Positions 5,924 through 22,091 of a stretch of 22,356 nucleotides of DNA are shown here, one piece after another. The position numbers were made by a program, and so were the translations under genes. Every line of letters starts with the position of its first letter. Positions within the stretch are counted from its first letter, which is position 1. Below the pieces are notes generated by a model. It made no database searches. It worked only from the letters and a program-made list of their open reading frames with translations, and was not told where the DNA came from. The stretch lies in IMG/VR virus record IMGVR_UViG_3300017744_002330, positions 1 through 22,356 of that record; one strand, given 5' to 3'. Source of the DNA: a virus.

Positions 5924-5952
5924 TTTACATTTAAACTAAACTATGGTATAAT
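5924..5952 (+). promoter_or_regulatory. Sigma70-type promoter P3, leaderless gp43 promoter
   Basis: TTTACA (5924-5929), a 17-bp spacer and TATAAT (5947-5952) with extended -10 TATGG. Only six bases (ATACAT) separate the -10 from the gp43 ATG at 5959. The expected start of transcription therefore falls at or within a base or two of the start codon. There is no room for a Shine-Dalgarno sequence. Confidence 0.85.
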
Positions 5953-5958
5953 ATACAT

Positions 5959-8490
5959 ATGATGAAATTCTATACTAATGTGTCTCGATATGGCAATATG
6001 ATTCTTTTACGAGGATATGACCATGGAAGACGAATTGAAAAGAAAGTCAAATACGAACCAATCCTTTTTACATCTACTAATCTTCCTACTAAGTGGAAAT
6101 CGCTTGATGGAAATCCTGTTGGTGTAGCAAATGCTGGTAAAAGATTCGAGTCTATGAGGACTGCAAACGAATATGTACAAGCAAACAAAGGAGTGTCTGG
6201 TAAGAAAATATACGGAAACACAAAGTACGTTCCAGCATTCATTAATGATTACTATCCTGGTAATATTGAATTCGATAGAAACAAAATCAATGTATCAACA
6301 ATCGATATTGAAGTTGCTTCTGACGACGGATTCCCTGAGCCTGAAAAAGCTGACCATAAGATTACCGCAATTTGTATGAAAAACAATATTGGTAATACTT
6401 ACTATGTCTGGGGCTTAGGTGATTATGATACTGACAAATCTTATATGAAAGACCACATGGTTGTATATCGTAAGTTTGACCGTGAAGATGATTTACTTAT
6501 TAACTTTATTACTCACTGGTCATCTCAACAATATTGTCCTGACGTCGTCACTGGTTGGAATTCAAGGTTCTTTGATATTCCATATCTTGTAAATAGAATC
6601 AATCGTATGCTTGGAGAAGCTTATGTCAAAAGACTTAGTCCTTGGGGAATGATTGATAGACAAGACGTAACTAAGATGGGAAGGACTCAAACTGCTTATG
6701 AACTTAAAGGTATATCTCAACTTGATTACCTTGACCTATTTAAGAAGTTTGGCTATTCGTATGGTCCACAAGAATCATACAAACTCGACAACATTGCTCA
6801 TGTCGTGCTTGGAGAAAAGAAACTATCTTACGATGAGTATTCGAATCTCCATACTCTTTACAAACACAATCATCAAAAGTTTATCGATTATAATATTAAA
6901 GACGTTGAGCTTGTCGATAAAATCGAAGATAAACTTGGATTGATTACTCTTTGCATGACGATGGCTTATAAAGCTGGAGTTAACTATAACGATACATTTG
7001 GTACTACAATGATATGGGATACGATTATCTATCGAAGATTATTCGCTAACAATATTGCTATACCATTTGTTGAAGATAAAACTAAATCAAACTATCCAGG
7101 TGGCTTTGTTAAAGACCCACAAGTAGGAATACATGATAATGTTGTTTCGTTTGACTTAAACTCTCTTTATCCTTCAATCATTATGCAATACAATATGTCG
7201 CCAGAAACAATTGCAAATGGAGAGATTACTCAGTTCGATATCGATGATGCAATCACTTCGCATAAAATGTCTTCTAATAGAGGTAAAGCTCTTGCAGCAA
7301 ATGGTCAATATTTCAATGTAGATAAGCCAGGCATAATCCCATTCATCATCGATGAAATGTACAAAGAGCGTGTAGGGATTAAAAAAGAAATGATTAACGC
7401 TCAAAAACAAAAAGAACAGGTAGATAAAAATGACAAACAAAAACTATATCAAATCGAAAGAGACATTGCAATCGCAGAAAACAGACAAATGGCCATTAAG
7501 ATTTTACTCAATAGTCTTTATGGCGCTCTTGGCAATCGTTATTTCAGATTCTTTGACCAGAGGATTGCTGAAGCCATTACCCTTACCGGACAACTTACAA
7601 TTCGATGGGCCGAATTTTCACTTAACACCTATCTTAACAGAGTGCTTAAACCTGCAAAATGGAAAGACTATGTTATTGCCATCGACACAGACTCGTTGTA
7701 TGTATGCCTAGATGATTTTGTACAGAAGTTTAAACCTGAAAACAAAATCGATTTCCTAGACAAAATTGCCAGTGAAGCATTAGAACCTGAGCTTGCAAAG
7801 TCATACGACCAACTGTATAAATATCTTGGCGGTGTAGATAATCGTATGGTTATGAAACGTGAAGCAATCGCTGACCGTGCGCTTTGGACTGCAAAGAAAA
7901 GATATATTATGAATGTACATGATAACGAAGGTGTAAGATATAAAGAACCAAAGCTTAAAATTATGGGTATTGAAGCCATTAAGTCTTCTACACCTGAACC
8001 ATGTCGTGACGCTCTTAAAAATATATTCAAAGTCATTATGAAAGAAGATGAAAGAACAGTACAAGAAGCTATTGAACAGTTCAAAAACTATTTCAAAACT
8101 CTTGACCCTGACCAAATCGCATTTCCTCGTGGAGTAACTCAAGTTAAGAAGTTTCAAGATAGAAATTCGTTGTATAAAAAAGGTACACCCATTCACGTTC
8201 GTGGCTCGATACTCTATAACAAACTGATTGAAGACATGCAACTTAAAAAGAAATACGAGCTCATTAACAACGGCGAGAAGATTAAGTTCTTATATCTTCG
8301 CCAACCAAATTCAATTCATGAAAATGTTATTGCTTTTCCATCCTACCTCCCAGAGGAGTTTGGCTTAAGGAAATACATAGACCATGAGACTCAATTTCAA
8401 AAAACATTCCTTGACCCTATTGAACCAGTCTTGGAAGCAGTAGGTTGGTCTTCGAAAGAAGTAGCAAACCTTGAGGATTTTTTTGGATAA
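5959..8490 (+). CDS. 43: Family B DNA polymerase (T4 gp43)
   Basis: 843 residues (T4 gp43: 898) with all exonuclease and polymerase motifs. Exo I is DIE at 116-118, Exo II has D206 in GWNSRFFDIPYL, and Exo III has Y311 and D315 in YNIKDVELVD. Motif A is DLNSLYPSI from D399, motif B is KILLNSLYGALGN from K514, and motif C is DTDS at 576-579. It replicates the phage genome with gp45, gp44/62 and gp41. The C-terminus ends in LEDFFG, matching a clamp-binding tail like that of T4 gp43. Two consecutive ATGs (5959 and 5962) stand directly behind the promoter without a Shine-Dalgarno sequence; either could be the start. Upstream transcription is largely stopped by the terminator at 5870. Confidence 0.96.
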   Translation: MMKFYTNVSRYGNMILLRGYDHGRRIEKKVKYEPILFTSTNLPTKWKSLDGNPVGVANAGKRFESMRTANEYVQANKGVSGKKIYGNTKYVPAFINDYYPGNIEFDRNKINVSTIDIEVASDDGFPEPEKADHKITAICMKNNIGNTYYVWGLGDYDTDKSYMKDHMVVYRKFDREDDLLINFITHWSSQQYCPDVVTGWNSRFFDIPYLVNRINRMLGEAYVKRLSPWGMIDRQDVTKMGRTQTAYELKGISQLDYLDLFKKFGYSYGPQESYKLDNIAHVVLGEKKLSYDEYSNLHTLYKHNHQKFIDYNIKDVELVDKIEDKLGLITLCMTMAYKAGVNYNDTFGTTMIWDTIIYRRLFANNIAIPFVEDKTKSNYPGGFVKDPQVGIHDNVVSFDLNSLYPSIIMQYNMSPETIANGEITQFDIDDAITSHKMSSNRGKALAANGQYFNVDKPGIIPFIIDEMYKERVGIKKEMINAQKQKEQVDKNDKQKLYQIERDIAIAENRQMAIKILLNSLYGALGNRYFRFFDQRIAEAITLTGQLTIRWAEFSLNTYLNRVLKPAKWKDYVIAIDTDSLYVCLDDFVQKFKPENKIDFLDKIASEALEPELAKSYDQLYKYLGGVDNRMVMKREAIADRALWTAKKRYIMNVHDNEGVRYKEPKLKIMGIEAIKSSTPEPCRDALKNIFKVIMKEDERTVQEAIEQFKNYFKTLDPDQIAFPRGVTQVKKFQDRNSLYKKGTPIHVRGSILYNKLIEDMQLKKKYELINNGEKIKFLYLRQPNSIHENVIAFPSYLPEEFGLRKYIDHETQFQKTFLDPIEPVLEAVGWSSKEVANLEDFFG

Positions 8491-8495
8491 AAACG

Positions 8496-8524
8496 TTTAC
8501 ATTTACGTAAAAATGTGGTATAAT
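8496..8524 (+). promoter_or_regulatory. Sigma70-type promoter P4
   Basis: TTTACA (8496-8501), a 17-bp spacer and TATAAT (8519-8524). The extended -10 reads TGTGG instead of TATGG but keeps the TGn element. It lies 5 bp after the gp43 stop. It drives the run of closely packed genes from 8545 to 11941, with a leader of about 14 nt containing ATGGAGA. Confidence 0.82.
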
Positions 8525-8823: not shown

Positions 8824-9230
8824 TGAATTGGGTAAAAGATATTCAAGACATGCAATACAAGTATGGTGTAAAGAAATGGATGCACGATAATCAAGATGAT
8901 GCAGAAAAGCTACGTAGCTATTTAGAATTCAGGATTAAATTCATAAGAGAAGAACTTATGGAAACTGAAGCAGCATTAACTAACGACGATGCAGAAGAAA
9001 TCGTCGATGGTCTTATCGATATTTGTGTAGTTGCTATTGGTACTCTTGACGCATTTGGCGTCGACCCATACAAAGCTTGGGATGAAGTACTTAAAGCAAA
9101 CTTAAATAAAACAGTAGGAGTAAAACCTGAAAGACCCAATCCACTAGGATTGCCGGACCTAATCAAACCAGAAGGTTGGGAAGGTCCAAGTCATGAAGGA
9201 AATCATGGTAAGTTTAACAATATTCGATAG
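8823..9230 (+). CDS. MazG-like nucleotide pyrophosphohydrolase
   Basis: 135 residues with the all-alpha NTP pyrophosphatase pattern: E44-x-x-E47 in the helix FIREELMETEAAL and E59-x-x-D62 in EEIVDGLIDICVVAIGT. These acidic residues bind metal in the MazG and PRA-PH families. Then comes a GVDPYKAWDEVLKANLNK segment, typical of phage members, where an N-K pair helps bind substrate. Family members hydrolyse NTPs or dNTPs to monophosphates. T4 gp56 (dCTPase/dUTPase) is also an all-alpha enzyme, and a phage with gp42 needs such an activity, so this could be its counterpart; that is inference. Coupled to the gene before. Confidence 0.8.
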   Translation: MNWVKDIQDMQYKYGVKKWMHDNQDDAEKLRSYLEFRIKFIREELMETEAALTNDDAEEIVDGLIDICVVAIGTLDAFGVDPYKAWDEVLKANLNKTVGVKPERPNPLGLPDLIKPEGWEGPSHEGNHGKFNNIR

Positions 9231-10122
9231 TATATACGACAACAAAACAGATAAGCGTATGGATTACAATAGTTTCGACGAGTTCGAGGCTATTCTCTAT
9301 AAGCTTTCTGAGTCGACTAAATATCCTACAAAGAAAGATGCTCCGCTTTTAAGTCCTGCAATATATCAAACTGGTACTACTCGTGCAAATGATAATGTCG
9401 TAGGTTGGGCTGGCTTTGGTATTCTTGATATTGATGATTATAGCGGTGATATGAAAGATATTGAATCAAAGTATGATAAGTATCGTTATGTATGTTATTC
9501 AACAGCATCATCTACAGTTGAGTCGCCAAAGTTTAGACTTGTCTTTCCATTAACTGATGTCGTTAACAAAGAAGACATTAAGCATTTTTGGTATGCTTTA
9601 AACAAAGAGATTGGCGATATTGCTGATGCTCAAACCAAAGACCTAAGCAGAATGTATTATGTTCCTGCTAAATATAAAAACAGTTTTAACTTCATATTCT
9701 CTCATGATGGAGATACTATGGACCCACATAAACTTATGGAACAATATCCATACGTTAAACCTAATCAAACAATGTTCGATCGATTTCCTGAAGCAATACA
9801 AAAAGCTTTACTTGAAAGAAAAAGAAACGAATTAAACAATACAAATTATACATGGACATCATATCGTGATTGTCCTTTCGTTAATAAGAAACAAGTTGAT
9901 GAATATAAAGTAATCAATGGAACTGGCTGGTATGCAAAAATGTATCAAATCATGTTAACAACAGCTGGCAATGCTCATAGTAAAGGATATCCAATTACAC
10001 CAAAAGAAATCGAATATATCTGTAGAGATTTAGATACTGATACAGGTGGTTGGTATAATAAAAGAGATTTAGAAAAAGAAGCTGCACGAGCTATCGAATT
10101 CGTGTTTAAAAATAACATATAG
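9205..10122 (+). CDS. Primase-polymerase (AEP-like) domain protein
   Basis: 305 residues. An acidic metal-binding motif, GFGILDIDDYSGD with D75 and D77, is followed by CYSTASSTVESPKFRLVFPL at about 97-116. That arrangement is typical of the archaeo-eukaryotic primase/PrimPol group found in phages and plasmids. SRMYYVPAKY follows, and the C-terminal third is a charged helical region. A role in priming or repair synthesis is plausible; the T4 primase gp61 is not in this window. ATG at 9205 has AAGGA 4 nt upstream; ATG at 9193 (four residues longer) has AAGG about 8 nt upstream. I prefer 9205 because TIFDSIYDN then sits near the N-terminus, as in similar phage proteins. The start overlaps the MazG-like gene. 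Confidence 0.65.
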   Translation: MVSLTIFDSIYDNKTDKRMDYNSFDEFEAILYKLSESTKYPTKKDAPLLSPAIYQTGTTRANDNVVGWAGFGILDIDDYSGDMKDIESKYDKYRYVCYSTASSTVESPKFRLVFPLTDVVNKEDIKHFWYALNKEIGDIADAQTKDLSRMYYVPAKYKNSFNFIFSHDGDTMDPHKLMEQYPYVKPNQTMFDRFPEAIQKALLERKRNELNNTNYTWTSYRDCPFVNKKQVDEYKVINGTGWYAKMYQIMLTTAGNAHSKGYPITPKEIEYICRDLDTDTGGWYNKRDLEKEAARAIEFVFKNNI

Positions 10123-11944: not shown

Positions 11945-11973
11945 TTTACATTTATGCCAAAGTATGGTATAAT
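11945..11973 (+). promoter_or_regulatory. Sigma70-type promoter P5 (modification operon)
   Basis: TTTACA (11945-11950), a 17-bp spacer and TATAAT (11968-11973) with extended -10 TATGG. The leader of about 23 nt ends in TTATGGAGACATT before the ATG at 12003. It is the only clear promoter for the seven genes up to 16530. Confidence 0.85.
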
Positions 11974-12002: not shown

Positions 12003-12335
12003 ATGAAAGAAAGCTTAAGAGTCCTGCAAGAATGCGCAGAACTACAAACTAAAAAATCTCAAGACTATCAAAGTTCTGAATCAACAGTAGTACAAGCAAT
12101 GCATTATAGACGTGGCATTGATACGATTCATGATATTATTCTTGGTAAAATGATGAGAGCAACTTCATTGCTTGAATCAGCTGATGACCCAAACTTCGAA
12201 AGCATTGAAGATACTTACAAAGACATGATTAACTATTGTTCTTTTGCAGTTGCTTATGCTCGTGGTAAAATGGAAGGTCAAGACCCGCAAAGAGATATGT
12301 TTAATAACAAGGTGACAAATGTATCAAGTGAATAG
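12003..12335 (+). CDS. Nmad1-like (DUF1599) protein
   Basis: 110 residues, all helical. KKSQDYQ, then IHDIILGKMMRATSLL and FESIEDTYKDMINYCSFAVAY match the DUF1599 group, also named nucleotide modification associated domain 1. Several phage members lie beside base-modification genes. The family's molecular role is not firmly known; substrate binding or nucleotide hydrolysis is suspected. GGAG lies 6 nt before the ATG. Its last 17 bases overlap gp42, so the two are probably translated together, which fits a shared role in the nucleotide pool or in DNA modification. Confidence 0.65.
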   Translation: MKESLRVLQECAELQTKKSQDYQSSESTVVQAMHYRRGIDTIHDIILGKMMRATSLLESADDPNFESIEDTYKDMINYCSFAVAYARGKMEGQDPQRDMFNNKVTNVSSE

Positions 12336-13005
12336 TACAGCAGATATTGCAGAAGTATTTAAGAAACATCTTAAAGCTGGTAACTTTGTTAAAGACAAAA
12401 CTGGTGTAGATACTATAGAAGTTATTGGTGCTTCTTTTGTTGCTGATAAACCAGCAATATTTGGTACGCCAAATCAAGATTATATTCAAGCCGAACTAGA
12501 TTGGTATGAATCATGTTCTACTAATATAACAGATATCTATCCTGAAGGAGATAAAGAACCACCTCAAGCTTGGCAGTATACTGCTAATGTTCATGGTGAA
12601 ATCAATTCTAATTATGGTCATCTTATATTCAGTAAAACATACCATAGACAATACAATCAAGTTCTTAAAGAATTAAGCGAGGTTAATCCAGATTCTCGTA
12701 GAGCATCAATGATATATCAAAGACCAAGTATATGGCGTGAATATAAAGAAAATGGTAAGAATGATTTTATCTGTACTAATGCAGTGACTTATTATATTCG
12801 TGACGGATACTTACACGCTGCAGTTCAAATGAGAAGCAATGATGTTATGTTTGGATATAGAAATGATTATGCTTGGCAAAGATATGTACAAGAAAAACTA
12901 CAAAAAGATTTATATTTCAGTGGTGTTCATATCGAACTTGGTCATATGTATTGGCAAGTACAAAACCTTCATGTTTATGAGAGGCATTTCGATCTTGTTA
13001 AGTAA
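12319..13005 (+). CDS. 42: dCMP hydroxymethylase (T4 gp42)
   Basis: 228 residues, collinear with T4 gp42 (246): DKTGVDTIEVIGASFVADKP, GEINSNYG, PDSRRASMIYQRPS and NLHVYERHF. It transfers a one-carbon unit from methylene-tetrahydrofolate to dCMP, giving 5-hydroxymethyl-dCMP. The catalytic Cys is C152 in DFICTNAV (T4 C148). D183 in RSNDVMFGYRNDYA corresponds to T4 D179, which replaces the Asn of thymidylate synthase and marks dCMP over dUMP use. Both are shifted by four residues, so the alignment is consistent. The C-terminus stops soon after HVYERHF, about 20 residues short of T4. It overlaps both neighbours. Start: AAGGTGAC upstream. Confidence 0.93.
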   Translation: MYQVNSTADIAEVFKKHLKAGNFVKDKTGVDTIEVIGASFVADKPAIFGTPNQDYIQAELDWYESCSTNITDIYPEGDKEPPQAWQYTANVHGEINSNYGHLIFSKTYHRQYNQVLKELSEVNPDSRRASMIYQRPSIWREYKENGKNDFICTNAVTYYIRDGYLHAAVQMRSNDVMFGYRNDYAWQRYVQEKLQKDLYFSGVHIELGHMYWQVQNLHVYERHFDLVK

Positions 13006-13435
13006 GTGGGATAAAAGATTTCTTGATATAGCTAAATCTGTATCAACCTGGAGTAAAGACCCAAGTAGAAAAATTGGAGCTATCGCTGTAAGAAATAGAA
13101 AAATATTGTCTACAGGATATAATGGGTTTCCTAAAGGTATAGAAGATACTGAAGAAAGATACAATAAAAGAGAAATTAAGTATCAATATGTTGTACATGC
13201 TGAAATGAACTGTATATATAATGCAGCAGAAAATGGTATATCATTAAAAGATTCTACATTATACATTTATGGTTTACCAGTATGTGGAGATTGTTCATTA
13301 GGAATAATACAAGCAGGAGTATTAAGAGTTGTTGCAGTCTCTCAAGATACTCCAGATAGATGGAAAACTGCAATAGGTAAAACAGATGAAATATTTAAAG
13401 AGGCAGGAGTAGAATATGAATTCACAGAAGTTTGA
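12995..13435 (+). CDS. cd: dCMP deaminase
   Basis: 146 residues of the zinc-dependent deaminase fold. H68-A-E70 in VVHAEMNCIYNAA and P95-V-C97-G-D-C100 provide the zinc ligands (H68, C97, C100) and the catalytic Glu (E70). STGYNGFPKGIED is the family's substrate loop. It converts dCMP to dUMP and feeds dTMP synthesis; T4 has the same enzyme. The start is TTG at 12995, with AGAGG 9 nt upstream, giving MLSKWDKRF, the usual N-terminus of phage relatives. ATG at 12977 would add six residues but has no Shine-Dalgarno. It overlaps gp42 by 11 bases and the next gene by 20. Confidence 0.9.
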   Translation: MLSKWDKRFLDIAKSVSTWSKDPSRKIGAIAVRNRKILSTGYNGFPKGIEDTEERYNKREIKYQYVVHAEMNCIYNAAENGISLKDSTLYIYGLPVCGDCSLGIIQAGVLRVVAVSQDTPDRWKTAIGKTDEIFKEAGVEYEFTEV

Positions 13436-13721
13436 CGAAAAAGAACTACAAAATTCAAAGCGTATATTTAAGAGTGCAACTCCTAAGTATACAATTGATT
13501 GGTATATTAAATGGGTAGCATCAGCTATTCTTTTAATTGCTATGGCAAGCAGGTCTAATCCTGAACTTGCTCTCTATGACCAAACGTTTTCCTTAGTTGG
13601 AACATTCGGTTGGTTAATAGTAGCTCTTATCTGGAAAGATAGAGCATTGATAATTTTAAACACAGCAGCAGTCATTATCCTCGGAAGTGGTCTGATAAGT
13701 GTTATAACTAATAGTATATAG
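13416..13721 (+). CDS. DUF6552-like multi-span membrane protein
   Basis: 101 residues. A charged N-terminus of about 25 residues is followed by WYIKWVASAILLIAMAS (span 1), LVGTFGWLIVALIWKDRA (span 2) and a last hydrophobic stretch, LIILNTAAVIILGSGLISV (span 3). The spacing and the W-K-D-R-A turn resemble a small membrane family (DUF6552) that I associate with marine phages. No function is established. It sits between dCMP deaminase and the inositol-phosphate synthase, overlapping the former by 20 bases, so it is co-translated with nucleotide genes although it is a membrane protein. Confidence 0.65.
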   Translation: MNSQKFDEKELQNSKRIFKSATPKYTIDWYIKWVASAILLIAMASRSNPELALYDQTFSLVGTFGWLIVALIWKDRALIILNTAAVIILGSGLISVITNSI

Positions 13722-13755
13722 TGAGCTACTCTGGTACGCCAGTCAAATTTCTCAC
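13721..13755 (+). other. Possible RNA hairpin in the gap before the inositol-phosphate synthase gene
   Basis: GTGAG (13721-13725) can pair with CTCAC (13751-13755), enclosing a CTGG-TACG-CCAG hairpin (13731-13742). There is no T-run after it, so it does not look like a normal terminator. It fills most of the 62-base gap, the longest untranslated gap inside this operon. It may protect or process the mRNA between the nucleotide genes and the following block. Confidence 0.35.
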
Positions 13756-13783
13756 TCAAATAAACTGATATAAGGAGAATAAT

Positions 13784-15076
13784 ATGTCAAAAATAAAAGC
13801 CGGAATCATCGGCGTTGGAAGTTGCGCAAAATCTTTAGTAGAAGGAGTGCAATATTATAATGAAAATCCTGAAGACAAAATAGGTCTAATGTACGAAGAT
13901 ATCGGAGGATATTCAGTACATGACATCGAGTTTGTTATAGGATTTGATATCGATAAAAGGAAAGTAAATAAGAAACTAGCAAGAGCTTTAAGAGCTCAGC
14001 CTAATTGCGCTATGGACCATGTCGATAAAATTACTACTACATCAAATAGTTCATGCGTAGATAAAGATGCAATGGTCTATTCAGCTCCAGAAATGGACGG
14101 AATAGCTCCACACATGCACGATTATCCAGATGAAGTTACGTTTGTAAATGGAGCTGTACCAGCAGAATCTTTTGAAAGGTCTGTTGAATTATTACAGTAT
14201 CATGATGTAGATGTATTAATTAACTATTTGCCAGTAGGTTCAGAAGAAGCTTCTAAATACTGGATTGATGTTGCTTTAGAAGCAGGAATACATTTCGTAA
14301 ATTGTATACCAACATTAATCTCAACAGAAGATGCTATGGTAACTGAACAAAGATTCATAGATGCAGGACTAACAATTGTTGGTTCAGATATGAGGTCAGC
14401 CTGGGGAGCTTCAAGAATGTCAGAAGTTCTACAAGGTGCTATGTTAGATTCAGGTCTAATGGTAACACAACATATTCAAATGAATATGGCTGCTGGTTCT
14501 ACACAAGGACAAGAGCATATAAGAACAGGAAGAACAGCAAATACTGATTTTCTTAATATGGCAAAACAATATAGATTACATAACAAACATGTATCAAAAG
14601 AAAATGTTTTAAAAGGACAGAACAGTGTAAGAGGAGAATCAACTGCAGGTATGACATTATTTGCTGGACCATCTCTTACTGTTCAACAAAAACCAGGTGG
14701 AGATTATATCTCGTCTGATAATAAAATAGCAAACTTTGATATGGTTGCTTATGGATTTGCAGGCGCAAGATATGAAATGTCAGCTAGACTTTCAGTTCAG
14801 GACTCTCCAAACTCTGGTGGAGTTGTTGTTTCAGCAATTAGATTTTGTAAGGTAGCTTCAGAGATGGGCATTGTAGGATATTTAAGAGGACCATCAGCAT
14901 GGACTCAAAAGACTCCTCCATTACAGCTCAAAACTCAAGATGCCAAATTTGAATGTGATGCTTTAGCTAGGAGAGTATTGACCGATATAACTACTCCTCA
15001 GCTCAAAGAAAATAGACCGAAGGCAAAAAATCTGCCTCACACCTTCCAAGATGCGAAGAACGATTATGAAAATTAA
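13784..15076 (+). CDS. Myo-inositol-1-phosphate synthase family protein
   Basis: 430 residues. The N-terminal Rossmann motif GIIGVGSCAKSLVEG (8-22) binds NAD. GGYSVHDIEFVIGFDID, NYLPVGSEEASKYW and HFVNCIPTLISTED follow the bacterial/archaeal MIPS pattern. GSTQGQEHIRTGRTANTDFLNM and, near 342-360, SVQDSPNSGGVVVSAIRF cover the catalytic domain. The enzyme turns glucose-6-phosphate into inositol-1-phosphate. It is longer than typical actinobacterial forms (about 360), mainly in the N-terminal half and the C-terminal tail. AAGGAGA precedes the ATG. Located between gp42 and uvsX, where T4 keeps its beta-glucosyltransferase, it might supply a group for DNA modification; lipid or osmolyte synthesis are other options. 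Confidence 0.85.
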   Translation: MSKIKAGIIGVGSCAKSLVEGVQYYNENPEDKIGLMYEDIGGYSVHDIEFVIGFDIDKRKVNKKLARALRAQPNCAMDHVDKITTTSNSSCVDKDAMVYSAPEMDGIAPHMHDYPDEVTFVNGAVPAESFERSVELLQYHDVDVLINYLPVGSEEASKYWIDVALEAGIHFVNCIPTLISTEDAMVTEQRFIDAGLTIVGSDMRSAWGASRMSEVLQGAMLDSGLMVTQHIQMNMAAGSTQGQEHIRTGRTANTDFLNMAKQYRLHNKHVSKENVLKGQNSVRGESTAGMTLFAGPSLTVQQKPGGDYISSDNKIANFDMVAYGFAGARYEMSARLSVQDSPNSGGVVVSAIRFCKVASEMGIVGYLRGPSAWTQKTPPLQLKTQDAKFECDALARRVLTDITTPQLKENRPKAKNLPHTFQDAKNDYEN

Positions 15077-15479
15077 TTCGTTTGATATCGACGGAGTAAT
15101 CTATTTTGGTGAAGGCACCACAGGCGTAAGACCCGGTAAAGATGACATCATCATTACTGGGCGGCCTTTCACTGATAGAGAAGCTACTGTAAAAATGCTA
15201 GAGTCAAGAGGTATATACAATACTCTTTATATGAATCCTTTAAAAAGAAAATTGCCTAATCCTAATGTCACGCATGGAATAAAAGATAATCCATTGTATG
15301 GAAGAAAAGCATCAGGCATCTTTAAAGGTCAAATGATTAATATGTTAAAAGACTTGGGAGTAGAAATAGAAATGCATTTTGAAGATGACCCAATTCAAAT
15401 TAAAGAAATCAAAAAAAGATGTCCTAATATTTCTATTGTACATTTAAAAAGAGATAACGAGGAACGTGTCAAGTACTAA
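15066..15479 (+). CDS. HAD-superfamily phosphatase-like protein
   Basis: 137 residues with the HAD motifs in order: motif I FDIDGVIYF (D7, D9), motif II IITGRPF (T31), a lysine near 87 in IFKGQMINML, and motif IV HFEDDPIQI (E106, D107, D108). The cap is minimal, so large or polymeric substrates are possible. Its place directly after the inositol-phosphate synthase (11-base overlap) makes phosphate removal from the synthase product attractive, though a 5'-nucleotidase or a nucleic-acid phosphatase would fit too. The ATG at 15066 is preferred over 15051, which lies further inside the preceding gene and has no Shine-Dalgarno. Overlaps the next gene by 14 bases. Confidence 0.8.
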   Translation: MKINSFDIDGVIYFGEGTTGVRPGKDDIIITGRPFTDREATVKMLESRGIYNTLYMNPLKRKLPNPNVTHGIKDNPLYGRKASGIFKGQMINMLKDLGVEIEMHFEDDPIQIKEIKKRCPNISIVHLKRDNEERVKY

Positions 15480-16530
15480 ATATAATTACGACTGGTCGAA
15501 TTACGATAAAGAACTCATGAAAGAGTTCAATTGGTTTCTATATAAAGTAAACCAAAGGTCAGCAATTCAACTTGGTTATAGCGATGAACAATACGAATCA
15601 GTAAATCGTCATGGCAAAAATGATTTTGGACTTGGAGAAGACGTAGAGTATTTTCATCCAACAATTACATTAGATGACCGTATGAGATTCATAGGTCAAG
15701 AGATTGCAAGTTTAGATACGTCAATAATGAATATTGTTGGCAATACTTTTATATCTCATTTCTATGGAGGAAGAGGAGTTCATTTTCTTGCTTCAGGAGA
15801 AGACAATGTCTTTGTTGATTTCGATAAGATAGCTGATAATGACCAAGAGTATATTCAATTTGTTCGTAATAATTTAGATAAAGCTATTCAAAACAAGCAA
15901 CCAATTTGGGGAACAACAGAGTTGCATACATCTATTCAAACATCGGCTAGAAACTTTTGTCGTCAAAAATACAATGACAAAGATAGAAAGTTTCATGCAG
16001 TTGATGTTTGTGAATGGGTATCTTCGTTTAGAGATACTGGATTCTTAGAAAGAATGCAACAATGTAATCATATGTCAGAAATATATACTCTCTTAAGAGA
16101 ACAACCTGGCATTGGACATTACTATGGATTTCACGGAGCTGCTTCATCATCTGTATTACCACAAATGAAGTATCATCATGACCAAAGATTTGTTTCGCCT
16201 GGACCAGGAGCAGTATATACAATACAACTTATGTGGCCAGATGCTCCAAAGAAATTATATGATGAAGCAATATACTACATGAGAGAAAATTCAGATGAAA
16301 TAGGATTAACAAAGAATGTCGTATTTCATCCTAAAGCTTTTAATATAAATAAGAAGGACGGTACAAAATTGTTTCAATACGAACAAGATTCTCTTAAATA
16401 CTACGGAACTGAAGTGTTGTCATGTCAGTTTGGTGTATACCTACAGATAAGAGAAGATGAACGAGCATGCGCGCGTAGACGTGTAGCACGAGTACAGAAG
16501 ACGAATAATCTTACTGAATTCTTTGAATAA
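15466..16530 (+). CDS. Alpha-GPT-pyrophosphorylase-like (DNA glycosylase fold) protein
   Basis: 354 residues. FNWFLYKVNQRSAIQLGY, then RMRFIGQEIASLD, and LLREQPGIGHYYGFHGAASS followed by QRFVSPGPGAVYTIQLMWP form the pattern of the HhH/glycosylase-fold family called alpha-glutamyl/putrescinyl thymine pyrophosphorylase. In that family a helix-hairpin-helix (PGIG) and a PGPGA loop are characteristic. Family members were proposed to replace a pyrophosphorylated hydroxymethyl base with another group in phage DNA. I assign it by motif, not by search. The C-terminus is Arg-rich (ACARRRVARV), fitting DNA binding. The start is a GTG overlapping the HAD gene, with GAGGA very close. ATG at 15517 is a shorter alternative. 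Confidence 0.55.
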   Translation: MSSTKYNYDWSNYDKELMKEFNWFLYKVNQRSAIQLGYSDEQYESVNRHGKNDFGLGEDVEYFHPTITLDDRMRFIGQEIASLDTSIMNIVGNTFISHFYGGRGVHFLASGEDNVFVDFDKIADNDQEYIQFVRNNLDKAIQNKQPIWGTTELHTSIQTSARNFCRQKYNDKDRKFHAVDVCEWVSSFRDTGFLERMQQCNHMSEIYTLLREQPGIGHYYGFHGAASSSVLPQMKYHHDQRFVSPGPGAVYTIQLMWPDAPKKLYDEAIYYMRENSDEIGLTKNVVFHPKAFNINKKDGTKLFQYEQDSLKYYGTEVLSCQFGVYLQIREDERACARRRVARVQKTNNLTEFFE

Positions 16531-16535
16531 AAACG

Positions 16536-16564
16536 TTTACATTTGTGCCAAAGTATGGTATAAT
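16536..16564 (+). promoter_or_regulatory. Sigma70-type promoter P6, leaderless
   Basis: TTTACA (16536-16541), a 17-bp spacer and TATAAT (16559-16564) with extended -10 TATGG. Seven bases (ATATCTA) separate the -10 from the ATG at 16572, so the mRNA is predicted to start at or next to the start codon. It lies 5 bp after the preceding stop. Confidence 0.85.
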
Positions 16565-16571
16565 ATATCTA

Positions 16572-17552
16572 ATGAAAAATATAATTAATTGTCCATTTAT
16601 TCCTATAGCCAAAAGGCCAGGCTCTCATAGAGGAGCTGCAGGAGTAATGTATGGCGATATGATAAAGGAGAAATATGGAAACTGCGATGTCAACTATGGT
16701 GGAGAAATTCAAGACCACAATGATTATGATAACCTTTGGGTCTATCACGGCACTGATTGGTCTGGTGGAATTAATATGTTTGGTGGCGTATATGGTTTTC
16801 CTTATGTTAAGAACACTGTCAACTTTTCTAAGTTCAAAGGCAGAGTCTTTTCAATTGGAATCGACTTCCCGCCGTATCACGAAATGGTTAAATCAAAACT
16901 GGAATCAGCTAAGAAAGAGGTTCAACCGGAATGGCATGAGGTAGACCTTAAAAATCTAGAACGCATGTATAATGAAACCGAAAGAATTGACTATCCTAAT
17001 CCAACTAATAAAATAGTTATTGGTGATAGTCATTCCATTTGCATGTATCGACCAGGTTGGACAGTAAACAGTGTTCCATTCAAAACTTTAAATGGAGCTA
17101 TAAATGATGGATTTGATAAATATATTCCATTTGATTACGAAGAGATAGAATGCTACTTTGGTAATATCGATATAAGACATCACGTAATCAGATTAGGACA
17201 AAAGATAGAAGATTTAGCTGATAGGTATATTGAAGAAGCAAATAAATATAATGCAAAGATATATGAGTTGCTTCCAATAGAAGATGTCAGTAGAAGAATA
17301 CCACAATCAGGATATTATAAAGGACAACCATTTTACGGTTCTTGGTCAGAAAGAAATGATGCAAGAAATAAATTTAACGATTATATAGAGAAAGAATACG
17401 GCATCAAAAGATGGACCGGTCATCTCTTTAATAAAGAAGGTAAGCTCGATTTTAAATACATGGAGAAACCACAATCAATACATTTATCCAGAGAGTTCTA
17501 TCCATATTGGAATGGAATAGAAGCAGCAGGATTAGAGGAGTTTTTTGCATGA
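16572..17552 (+). CDS. SGNH/GDSL-hydrolase-like protein
   Basis: 326 residues. IVIGDSHSICMYRPGW (GDSHS at 151-155) follows a strand, as does the nucleophile Ser of SGNH hydrolases. CYFGNIDIRHH (194-204) lies where the family has its oxyanion-hole Asn, and QSIHLSREFYPYW near the C-terminus could hold the catalytic His. The first 140 residues are rich in Gly, Tyr and Asp and contain YHGTDWSGG; I cannot place them. SGNH enzymes act as esterases or acyl transferases, so trimming or adding an ester on a modified base or sugar is imaginable but unproven. The start at 16572 is the only ATG compatible with promoter P6; the longer frame from 16545 begins inside the promoter. There is no Shine-Dalgarno. 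The stop overlaps the methyltransferase ATG. Confidence 0.6.
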   Translation: MKNIINCPFIPIAKRPGSHRGAAGVMYGDMIKEKYGNCDVNYGGEIQDHNDYDNLWVYHGTDWSGGINMFGGVYGFPYVKNTVNFSKFKGRVFSIGIDFPPYHEMVKSKLESAKKEVQPEWHEVDLKNLERMYNETERIDYPNPTNKIVIGDSHSICMYRPGWTVNSVPFKTLNGAINDGFDKYIPFDYEEIECYFGNIDIRHHVIRLGQKIEDLADRYIEEANKYNAKIYELLPIEDVSRRIPQSGYYKGQPFYGSWSERNDARNKFNDYIEKEYGIKRWTGHLFNKEGKLDFKYMEKPQSIHLSREFYPYWNGIEAAGLEEFFA

Positions 17553-18736
17553 GTTATGCGAGTATAGTACCACTTATAGGTGGAGAAACAATAGCAATGG
17601 AGAATGTCTTTAAAGAGAAGCCAAAGTATTTTCTTACTTTTGACGGCTTTCAAGATAATGAATCTCACTTAAACAATTATTACAAACATGAGGTCCCATA
17701 TTTGAACCTCTCAGAGGGAGCGAGTTACACAGAAAAAGTTGATGTGATTAATACAGTGTGCCCATGTGCGGGGCTTAGTTCCCTTAGTCCCTCTGCTTCA
17801 AGCACTAATCCAATGAACGAATGGATGTATAAATCAGCTGAATATGTACTTGGTGAAGTACAACCGAAAGTCTTTTGGGGAGAGAATGCTCCAAGGCTTG
17901 CAAGTAAGATGGGAGAACCTGTAGTAAAGAGATTACGAAAGATAGCAGAAAAGAATGGTTATACAATGAGTATCTTTAAAACAAAATCTATATTACATGG
18001 ATTAAGTCAAGTAAGAGATCGCACATTTTACTTCTTTTGGAAAGGAGACGAAGTCCCACTCTTTGAGTACATATATGAACAACCTACAACAATTGCTGAT
18101 GATATAAGAGCAGTCAAAAGATGTGATAATGACCCAATGAGTCAGATACTTTGCAATGACGCTATCCCATCAGAGAATCCATACTATAAATACGTACTAG
18201 AAGTATTAGAAGGTGGAATCACACATAAAGAGTTTCAAGATAAAATTGAAAAAACTACTAATCCTATGGATTATATAGAAGAAAGAACAACTTATAAAGA
18301 AGTTGCAAAATGGATGAGAGAACATGGATATGATAATGTCGCAAAGAAATGTGATAGACAATACCATAAGCTCAAGTCAGGTGGTAACATAATGAGAAAA
18401 ACTACTGAGATTCCTAAAGATAAAATAGGAGCCTTTGTAGGTCATATGCCAACATGCTTAACACATCCAGACGAAGACCGATATTTAACAGTAAGAGAAG
18501 CTTTATCGCTTATGAAGTTACCATTTAACTTTATACTGTTAAATCCTAAAAGGTCGTTGAACCACATATGTCAAAATGTACCAGTGACTACAGCTGAGCA
18601 TCCTGCTCGAATGGTTCAAAAATATTTAAACAATCAGCTTGAGATGGTAGACACAAAGTTCTTAGTTCAGGATAATAAAAAAAGAACCTATAATTTTGAA
18701 AAAAACAGTTTACAACTCACTGATTTTATGGTATAA
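17549..18736 (+). CDS. Divergent C5-cytosine DNA methyltransferase homologue
   Basis: 395 residues with a Dcm-like layout. The motif I region SIVPLIGGETIAMEN lacks the usual F-x-G-x-G. Motif IV is VCPCAGLS with P72-C73, where Ala replaces the usual Gln of PCQ. Motif VI is GENAPRL with E112-N113. A motif VIII-like GLSQVRDRTFYFFW follows, and the C-terminal part has YLTVREALSLMKLPFNF and a motif X-like QNVPVTTAEHPARMV. The catalytic Cys and Glu remain, so activity is plausible, but the SAM site is altered. If cytosines are hydroxymethylated in this phage, classical methylation could not occur on them; the enzyme may act on other DNA or carry out different chemistry. GAGGAG lies 8 nt before the ATG. 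The stop codon falls inside the next promoter. Confidence 0.75.
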   Translation: MSYASIVPLIGGETIAMENVFKEKPKYFLTFDGFQDNESHLNNYYKHEVPYLNLSEGASYTEKVDVINTVCPCAGLSSLSPSASSTNPMNEWMYKSAEYVLGEVQPKVFWGENAPRLASKMGEPVVKRLRKIAEKNGYTMSIFKTKSILHGLSQVRDRTFYFFWKGDEVPLFEYIYEQPTTIADDIRAVKRCDNDPMSQILCNDAIPSENPYYKYVLEVLEGGITHKEFQDKIEKTTNPMDYIEERTTYKEVAKWMREHGYDNVAKKCDRQYHKLKSGGNIMRKTTEIPKDKIGAFVGHMPTCLTHPDEDRYLTVREALSLMKLPFNFILLNPKRSLNHICQNVPVTTAEHPARMVQKYLNNQLEMVDTKFLVQDNKKRTYNFEKNSLQLTDFMV

Positions 18737-18737
18737 T
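18709..18737 (+). promoter_or_regulatory. Sigma70-type promoter P7 inside the methyltransferase 3' end
   Basis: TTTACA (18709-18714), a 17-bp spacer and TATAAT (18732-18737) with extended -10 TATGG. The whole promoter lies within the end of the methyltransferase gene, and the TAA stop (18734-18736) is part of the -10 box. It drives bS21, with AAAGGAG before the ATG at 18767, and then uvsX, 40 and 41. Confidence 0.85.
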
Positions 18738-22062: not shown

Positions 22063-22091
22063 TTTACATTTGCTTAAAAGTATGGTATAAT
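22063..22091 (+). promoter_or_regulatory. Sigma70-type promoter P8
   Basis: TTTACA (22063-22068), a 17-bp spacer and TATAAT (22086-22091) with extended -10 TATGG. The initial transcribed region (ATATCTA) is the same as at P6. Here, unlike P6, a leader with AAGGAG follows before the ATG at 22127. Confidence 0.85.

Follow-up and report, generated by a model that had tools for sequence, protein, structure and literature searches.

The stretch analyzed here, referred to as the window, is the virus record IMGVR_UViG_3300017744_002330, a fragment of 22,356 bases. It carries a T4-like replication cluster on one strand, in the order gp45, gp44, gp62, regA, gp43, a block of modification genes, bS21, uvsX and gp41. 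The block includes gp42, the dCMP hydroxymethylase gene, and we consider it very likely that the hydroxymethylcytosine (hmC) that gp42 would provide is hypermodified in one way or another. Decoration by a route other than that of T4 is well supported by the gene content, by co-occurrence, by a domain like that of T4 beta-glucosyltransferase (beta-GT) and by clamp-type tails. In our best reading, which we think fairly likely, two proteins of the block, P8 and P7, decorate gp42-made hmC at the replication fork, and an inositol-3-phosphate synthase (MIPS) together with a small HAD phosphatase-like protein supplies myo-inositol or a related cyclitol. The weakest step is that the decorating group is derived from inositol, which falls just short of an even chance.

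The initial annotation had named the genes of this block, and Pfam, PHROG and NCBIfam profile scans found all of them present, in the order given and on one strand. It had also noted that an Nmad1-like gene overlaps gp42; the overlap is 17 bases (PF07659 E 1.5e-7 for the upstream gene). Gene names in the cluster were checked against the annotated Phage C48C1 (Kyanoviridae), the best named match of the window gp43 (51% identity). A megablast of the window against 50,697 phage records gave no match, with near records possibly masked. The features of the block are as follows:

12003..12335, + strand: Nmad1-like (DUF1599) protein (PF07659 E 1.5e-7)
12319..13005, + strand: gp42, dCMP hydroxymethylase (PF00303 8.6e-13, phrog_160 2.5e-47)
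12971..13435, + strand: dCMP deaminase, start approximate (near 12971-12977) (PF00383 3.8e-18, phrog_174 2.2e-45)
13416..13721, + strand: DUF6552 small protein (PF20189 1.4e-17)
13784..15076, + strand: MIPS-like inositol-3-phosphate synthase (PF01658 2.2e-7, TIGR03450 2.6e-56)
15051..15479, + strand: small HAD phosphatase-like protein (phrog_415 PNK 1.9e-6, HAD motifs)
15466..16530, + strand: P7, HMUDK helical-domain protein (PF18723 5.8e-12)
16572-17552, + strand: P8 as a whole, beta-GT-like N-terminal half and SGNH C-terminal half
16572..16991, + strand: P8 residues 1-140, like the N-terminal (acceptor) domain of T4 beta-GT (VIA, hhalign)
17004..17531, + strand: P8 residues 145-320, SGNH (GDSL) domain (VIA Z about 9-11; invariant S153, N198 and H304)
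17549..18736, + strand: C5-cytosine-methyltransferase-like (MTase-like) protein (PF00145 2.3e-14)

The start of P8 was placed at ATG 16572 and not at GTG 16545 because the relatives of P8 start there. The ATG of the MTase-like gene, at 17549, overlaps the stop of P8, and the gene is followed by bS21 (profile E 4.4e-17), uvsX and gp41.

P8, P7 and their clamp-type tails

P8 had been described initially as an SGNH-like protein. This holds for its C-terminal half, but residues 1-140 match the N-terminal domain of T4 beta-GT. AlphaFold2 models were fair for the whole of P8 (pLDDT 79) and good for residues 1-140 (pLDDT 91.7). With the N-terminal domain, the top four VIA rows were all beta-GT (Z 8.9, 8.7, 7.5 and 7.3 over 105-124 residues), the best being 1nzd (Z 8.9, 123 residues, root-mean-square deviation (rmsd) 2.8), and the next unrelated chain had Z 5.9. 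When the N-terminal profile was compared by hhalign with a five-member beta-GT profile, E was 2.2e-7 with a probability of 93.6%, covering beta-GT residues 21-100 only, while two unrelated control profiles gave E 0.66 and 0.24. P8 against T4 beta-GT alone gave E 2e-4. Foldseek with full-length P8 placed beta-GT 1j39 at rank 3 with E 5.4e-4, but with an rmsd of 17. The only recurrent Pfam match of P8 was PF09198, found below the cut-off in 8 of 29 members (best E 0.021); the window P8 scored 13.5-14 bits (E 0.043-0.058) and did not reach the curated cut-off of 27 bits. Profile searches of the PDB with P8 and with P7 returned nothing useful. P8 sits in the T4 beta-gt position, between 42 and uvsX.

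The N-terminal half of beta-GT holds the flipped base and the catalytic base Asp100. The P8 position aligned with Asp100, position 98, is Asp or Glu in 47/55 proteins. This flipped-base and Asp100 side is the half that P8 seems to keep, and the UDP-glucose half has apparently been replaced by the SGNH domain. P8 looks like a rebuilt beta-GT, and the arrangement suggests that a beta-GT acceptor domain was put to new use by joining it to a different catalytic half. The initial annotation had seen no glucosyltransferase; a whole one was indeed not found in the block, but P8 holds the N-terminal half of one. Its broader proposal, hmC DNA decorated by another route, gains from the gp42 co-occurrence, the P8 acceptor domain, the clamp-type tails and the P8-P7 fusion described below, and needs amending in that a glucosyltransferase remnant exists.

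The C-terminal half of P8 aligns with many SGNH hydrolases (VIA Z of about 9-11), and the acyltransferase 8zbc is among the matches. Residues G151, D152, S153, H154, N198, E298 and H304 are invariant in 55/55 P8 proteins. P8 has the SGNH fold, the Ser of the GDS block, the oxyanion Asn and the block V His, the residues being presumed to belong to these blocks by their motifs. The Asp of the SGNH DxxH motif (position 301) is found in 0/55 P8 proteins, and Glu298 is invariant instead.

Three proteins of the block end in the same way as the DNA polymerase. In T4, the hydrophobic, acidic C-termini of gp43, gp55 and gp33 bind the sliding clamp (PMC2988020). We defined the tail as L-x-[DESTQ]-F-[FMLI]-(x) at the C-terminus and counted it in forward open reading frames (ORFs) of at least 60 residues, keeping one per identical last 60 residues. 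Four of the 35 forward ORFs of the window fit the pattern:

8467..8490, + strand: gp43 tail NLEDFFG plus stop, the reference clamp epitope
16507..16527, + strand: P7 tail NLTEFFE
17529..17549, + strand: P8 tail GLEEFFA
18713..18733, + strand: MTase-like protein tail QLTDFMV

In the first set of related loci, the tail was present in MTase-like proteins (34/37), P8 (41/46), gp43 (19/22) and P7 (27/38). It was absent from gp42 (0/46), MIPS (0/45), HAD (0/46), the deaminase (0/43), uvsX (0/39), gp41 (0/26) and ORFs without an assigned family (0/473). Loci fetched after the pattern had been fixed gave 8/11 for the MTase-like protein, 15/21 for P8, 11/17 for P7, 4/5 for gp43 and 1/2 for TET oxygenases, and zero in each other family and in 215 unassigned ORFs. 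Within the block, the tail is found on the proteins that should work on DNA and not on those that should work on small molecules. Going by these sequences, P7, P8 and the MTase-like protein are very likely tethered to the clamp by their C-terminal tails. DNA-acting proteins without the tail include uvsX, gp41 and the amino acid:DNA transferase (ADDT), and T4 beta-GT has no clamp tail. Some tails are similar and lie outside the counting pattern: SLDFLFG in T4 gp43, SLDFLYEAND in T4 gp55 and CSLDGLFAI in ORF233c of Aeromonas phage 44RR2.8t (44RR).

Two side observations concern tails on other enzymes. The TET/JBP oxygenases of two related loci (L152 4118-5527 and L162 5352-6707), which had been considered as radical SAM proteins before that assignment was rejected, carry the clamp-type tails LEEFF and LEGFF and adjoin ADDT, MIPS and HAD. 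In Stenotrophomonas phage Moby, a tRNA-guanine-transglycosylase-like protein (L003 11482-12693) ends in NSLDDLFG, outside the pattern and like Moby gp43 (SSLEDLFGW), and Moby QueC does not. It is possible that 7-deazaguanine enzymes that act on DNA are marked by the tail as well.

P7 belongs to a family in which PF18723 (HMUDK_hel) was found in 24/24 members. It is not a whole 5-hydroxymethyldeoxyuridine (5-hmdU) kinase, since a Pfam scan of P7 showed no kinase domain. ORF233c of 44RR is a protein of 795 residues that consists of P8 followed by P7, and Aeromonas phage UP87 has the same fusion. Because the two form one polypeptide in 44RR, P7 is taken as the partner of P8. A relationship between P7 and ADDT was not detected (hhalign profile against one ADDT protein, E 0.13), and a 392-aa protein of three loci (L074, L080 and L085) was rejected as a relative of P7 (hhalign E 0.14) and belongs to an unassigned family. 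An SGLT-type sodium/sugar symporter adjoins the fusion in both 44RR (L002 6408-7931) and UP87 (L173 3259-4818), so these phages may import sugar for their own DNA. A tblastn search for MIPS in the Aeromonas phages gave no match.

Conservation of the block and its putative supply genes

Co-occurrence was counted as distinct gene sequences in related viral contigs. The MIPS scan used the best 80 of at least 477 relatives (at least 600 stretches) and leans to close relatives; the P8 scan used the best 80 of 123. Relatives with a P8 of only about 50% identity still have the gene order of the block, which is far above chance. HAD lies directly 3' of MIPS in 95/95 sequences from loci with 500 bases downstream, and within 4.5 kb downstream of MIPS there is P7 in 55/57 and P8 in 54/57. 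Upstream of P8, in loci with 6.5 kb available, MIPS was found in 39/42. The MTase-like gene is the next gene after P8 in 66/73, and an Nmad1-like gene lies 5' of gp42 in most of the related loci that extend that far.

Co-occurrence with gp42, a check that the initial annotation had called for, was found in 39/42 P8 loci (6.5 kb upstream) and in 45/56 MIPS loci (3.5 kb upstream). One miss among the latter, L083, has gp42 just beyond the range. The window gp42 is 52% identical to T4 gp42 and keeps the Asp of T4 position 179, a residue with a role in specificity. A gp42 orthologue was also present in 4/4 P8-bearing Straboviridae tested (44RR, 25, UP87 and IME13, E about 1e-99 to 1e-101), drawn from 40 Aeromonas and Stenotrophomonas records with P8. 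Moby gave no gp42 match, and Caulobacter phage Cr30 gave one at thymidylate-synthase level only. In Moby, Cr30, L148-L150, L152 and L162, the record or stretch that was searched has MIPS and HAD but no gp42, so the pair does not depend on gp42 alone. Next to the pair in L152 and L162 is a TET-type oxygenase, an enzyme that provides another known route to hmC.

Variants of the block were also seen. Four loci (L071, L074, L080 and L085) keep gp42, P8 and the MTase-like gene and have no MIPS, HAD or P7, and in L154 P8 lies upstream of MIPS-HAD instead. An alternative module near gp42 and P8 (L074 5694-9984, L080, L085, L183, L184 and L187) combines a PALP-like protein (phrog_7093 in L074) with a protein of roughly 400 residues and, in some of these loci, a third protein; the last two have no assigned family. 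In L058 an FkbM methyltransferase lies in the P7-P8 interval; ORFs resembling it occur in L030 and L043. In L083 a family-4 glycosyltransferase (GT4-type) lies 5' of MIPS. Pfam scans covered L058 only for FkbM and L074 only for PALP, and the ORFs of L030, L043, L080 and L085 were judged by eye. Also between the P7 and P8 genes of L058, at 8975-9550, is an ORF whose features look like those of an alternative oxidase. The Tulanevirus phages 25 (L005 5779-7960) and IME13 (L174 2273-4455) have a UDP-galactopyranose mutase and an unassigned 358-aa protein near P8, and a galactofuranose decoration of hmC is possible in these two. The range of P8 partners (SGLT-type symporter, UDP-galactopyranose mutase) shows that P8 is not restricted to a single group.

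The MIPS family profile matched Ino1 of M. tuberculosis (1gr0) at E 1.1e-89, a whole-length homology, and scored lower with the five-membered-cyclitol synthase 6k96 (2.7e-45). The window MIPS is below the NCBIfam equivalog cut-off of TIGR03450 (191 vs 638 bits). In the small HAD protein, D12, D14, T36, K92, E111, D112 and D113 are invariant in 11 aligned sequences, in keeping with the HAD scheme of DxD, T, K and an acidic motif IV. The motifs D[IF]DG, TGR and H[FY]EDD occur in 84/84 HAD copies, a set that includes repeats of one contig. The protein had no Pfam match, and a PDB profile search with its family gave nothing useful. It is a predicted inositol-phosphate phosphatase. Beyond the block, MIPS and HAD stand beside ADDT and the TET-type oxygenase in L152 and L162, with ADDT and a TAGT-like protein in Cr30 (where HAD is two short ORFs 3' of MIPS), and beside QueC in L148 and Moby. 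Downstream of the pair in L162 come a P-loop kinase (Ploopntkinase3) and a cytidylyltransferase-like protein. Our guess is that MIPS and HAD are an inositol supply for base decoration. Among the papers listed in searches of an open-licence library, none connects inositol or MIPS with phage DNA modification.

The last protein of the block, which the initial annotation had taken for a divergent C5-methyltransferase, belongs to a family with PF00145 in 18/18 members. It has the motif IV Cys, the motif VI Glu-Asn and the motif VIII QxRxR of C5-methyltransferases, and PC[AS]GLS, GENAP, Q[VI]RxR and CQNVP occur in 80/80 copies, again with repeats of one contig among them. LFxGxG, the canonical S-adenosylmethionine motif I of these enzymes, occurs in the first 60 residues of 0/80 copies, and PLIGG occurs in 80/80. 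The best PDB match of the profile is CmoX, 8YF3 (E 3.5e-6). CmoX uses Arg350 to contact the carboxymethyl group of its cofactor Cx-SAM, and M.HhaI has Asn304 there (PMC12783734). HMMER aligns Arg350 of 8YF3 with the Gln of the invariant CQNVP, and the identification as a CmoX carboxymethyltransferase was rejected. A search of eight named phage records with the MTase profile found nothing, a result without a positive control that shows little. Engineered M.SssI couples thiols to 5hmC sites in vitro (PMC7176277). The MTase-like protein could methylate residual cytosine, or it could act on hmC.

How the block may decorate DNA

The reading that we favor can be laid out in four steps. By orthology, gp42 would convert dCMP to hydroxymethyl-dCMP, and the phage polymerase would incorporate hmC. 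By homology, MIPS would convert glucose-6-phosphate to inositol-3-phosphate, which HAD would dephosphorylate to myo-inositol or a close cyclitol. P7, P8 and the MTase-like protein, which bear the polymerase-like tail signature, would ride the sliding clamp, and decoration would therefore be coupled to replication. Finally, the beta-GT-type domain of P8 would hold the flipped-out hmC and activate its hydroxyl, and the SGNH domain, standing where beta-GT has its UDP-glucose half, would carry or transfer the group, with P7 as partner. In some relatives, the group would probably be changed further by the FkbM methyltransferase or the family-4 glycosyltransferase. Taken to its full extent, this becomes a beta-GT whose UDP-glucose half was swapped for an SGNH serine-transferase and which, with a base-flipping partner of the HMUDK fold, attaches a phage-made cyclitol to hmC at the fork, while the clamp-bound C5-MTase-like protein acts on hmC through a Cys adduct. 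In all this detail the mechanism is doubtful; if true, it would be the first cyclitol-bearing DNA.

Several observations weigh against the favored reading. When the N-terminal domain of P8 was searched by itself with Foldseek, there were no hits at E<=0.001, and beta-GT was missing from the 50 rows listed. SGNH domains are not known to transfer sugars or cyclitols and usually work on acyl esters. P8 is present without MIPS, HAD and P7 in phage 25, IME13, L074, L080 and L085, and is therefore not tied to inositol, and in L148 and L162, MIPS and HAD have no gp42, P7 or P8 within reach. Among ten block proteins scanned with Pfam, none was a kinase or nucleotidyltransferase for the activation of inositol or hmC. 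As for the tails, ADDT, DNA-acting by name, fits the pattern in 0/2 cases, 11/38 P7 proteins have no tail, and T4 alpha-GT, a clamp binder, has no such tail. T4 alpha-GT co-purifies with gp45, and T4 beta-GT does not bind the clamp (both from PMC13216743).

A different role for P8 would be that of an hmC O-acyltransferase whose SGNH Ser passes an acyl group to the hydroxyl of hmC or of its sugar, with MIPS and HAD serving a separate decoration or none. The SGNH fold with its Ser, Asn and His and the acyltransferase 8zbc among the matches agree with it, as does the sharing of P8 by phages with different sugar-supply genes, which is what a second-layer enzyme would show. Set against these are the absence of the DxxH Asp from all 55 P8 proteins, the lack of a recognized acyl-donor gene in the block, and the conservation of MIPS-HAD-P7-P8 as one run. 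We regard this role as unlikely.

It is less likely still that MIPS and HAD are auxiliary metabolic genes for host lipid, osmolyte or stress metabolism that by chance lie in a hypermodification hot spot, with P7 and P8 attaching some other group. The gap between 43 and uvsX is variable, as in RB69 (PMC6024577) and C48C1, and Moby, L148 and L162 have the pair with neither gp42 nor P8 nearby. However, MIPS is always followed by HAD wherever 500 bases downstream could be read (95/95), and every context examined in detail adjoins DNA-modification enzymes (P7/P8, ADDT/TET, ADDT/TAGT-like or QueC). Plain 5hmC DNA, with P7 and P8 as clamp-bound nucleases, esterases or erasers directed at host DNA or defense and not as writers, is very improbable: the C-terminal half of P8 is a hydrolase fold and T4 does act against unmodified DNA through denA, denB and alc (PMC2993671), but P8 has a beta-GT-like acceptor domain in the beta-GT gene position, P7 has the 5-hmdU kinase helical fold, and the link to gp42 is steady.

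The favored reading offers a candidate, open to testing, for how hmC is modified in a marine T4-like lineage found in many metagenome contigs and, via the P8-P7 fusion, in Aeromonas phages including 44RR and 31. The clamp-type tail would be an easy sign by which to recognize, in T4-like operons, the modification enzymes that act on DNA. An inositol group, if it proves to be one, would add a new class to the known DNA decorations and provide another means of labeling hmC.

Known systems and promoter-like repeats

The block resembles the T4 system for hmC glucosylation (42 with beta-GT and alpha-GT) in its gp42 orthologue, in the position of a modification gene between 42 and uvsX and in the N-terminal half of P8, and coupling to the clamp is known for T4 alpha-GT (PMC13216743). 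It differs in adding P7, MIPS, HAD and the C5-MTase-like protein and in the SGNH domain that P8 has for the UDP-glucose half. RB69, with arabinosyl-hmC, likewise has candidate sugar-supply genes between the DNA polymerase gene and uvsX, but they are other genes, and its proposed transferase, ORF003c, is likely a GT-B-type glycosyltransferase (Thomas 2018, PMC6024577). Thymidine hypermodification by 5-hmdU kinase and ADDT shares with the block the helical-domain family of P7 and, in L152, L162 and Cr30, the company of ADDT and MIPS-HAD; in contrast, P7 has no kinase domain, and the base in the window would be hmC from gp42. In the carboxymethylcytosine system of CmoX and CmoY, a phage C5-MTase homologue also takes part in cytosine hypermodification (PMC12783734), whereas the MTase-like protein has Gln for Arg350, and no CmoA or ligase was recognized among the block proteins scanned.

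The Aeromonas phages 44RR2.8t, 31, UP87 and 25 are like the window in having gp42 and P8 (fused to P7 in 44RR and UP87) and unlike it in having no MIPS match; 44RR has the symporter and phage 25 the UDP-galactopyranose mutase. An earlier survey counted 44RR, 31, 25, RB69 and JS98 among the phages that have gene 42 but no glucosyltransferase genes and whose hmC state was then not known (Petrov 2010, PMC2993671). In Phage C48C1, the slot between 43 and uvsX (L188 16501-20247) holds an annotated DNA methyltransferase, a nucleotide-sugar epimerase and a UDP-glucose dehydrogenase.

The window also contains a repeat, TTTACA-N14-TGGTATAAT, in eight exact copies on the coding strand, where 0.05 would be expected with one mismatch allowed:

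206-234, 1695-1723, 5924-5952, 8496-8524, 11945-11973, 16536-16564, 18709-18737 and 22063-22091, + strand: repeat copies

Each copy lies 7 to 36 bases 5' of an ORF start, and together the repeats probably serve this phage as a family of extended -10 promoters. The copy at 11945..11973 precedes the run from the Nmad1-like gene and gp42 to P7, the copy at 16536..16564 precedes P8, and the copy at 18709..18737 precedes bS21 and uvsX. The repeat upstream of P8 is exact in only 4/30 relatives. An mRNA from this repeat would begin at or near the P8 ATG.

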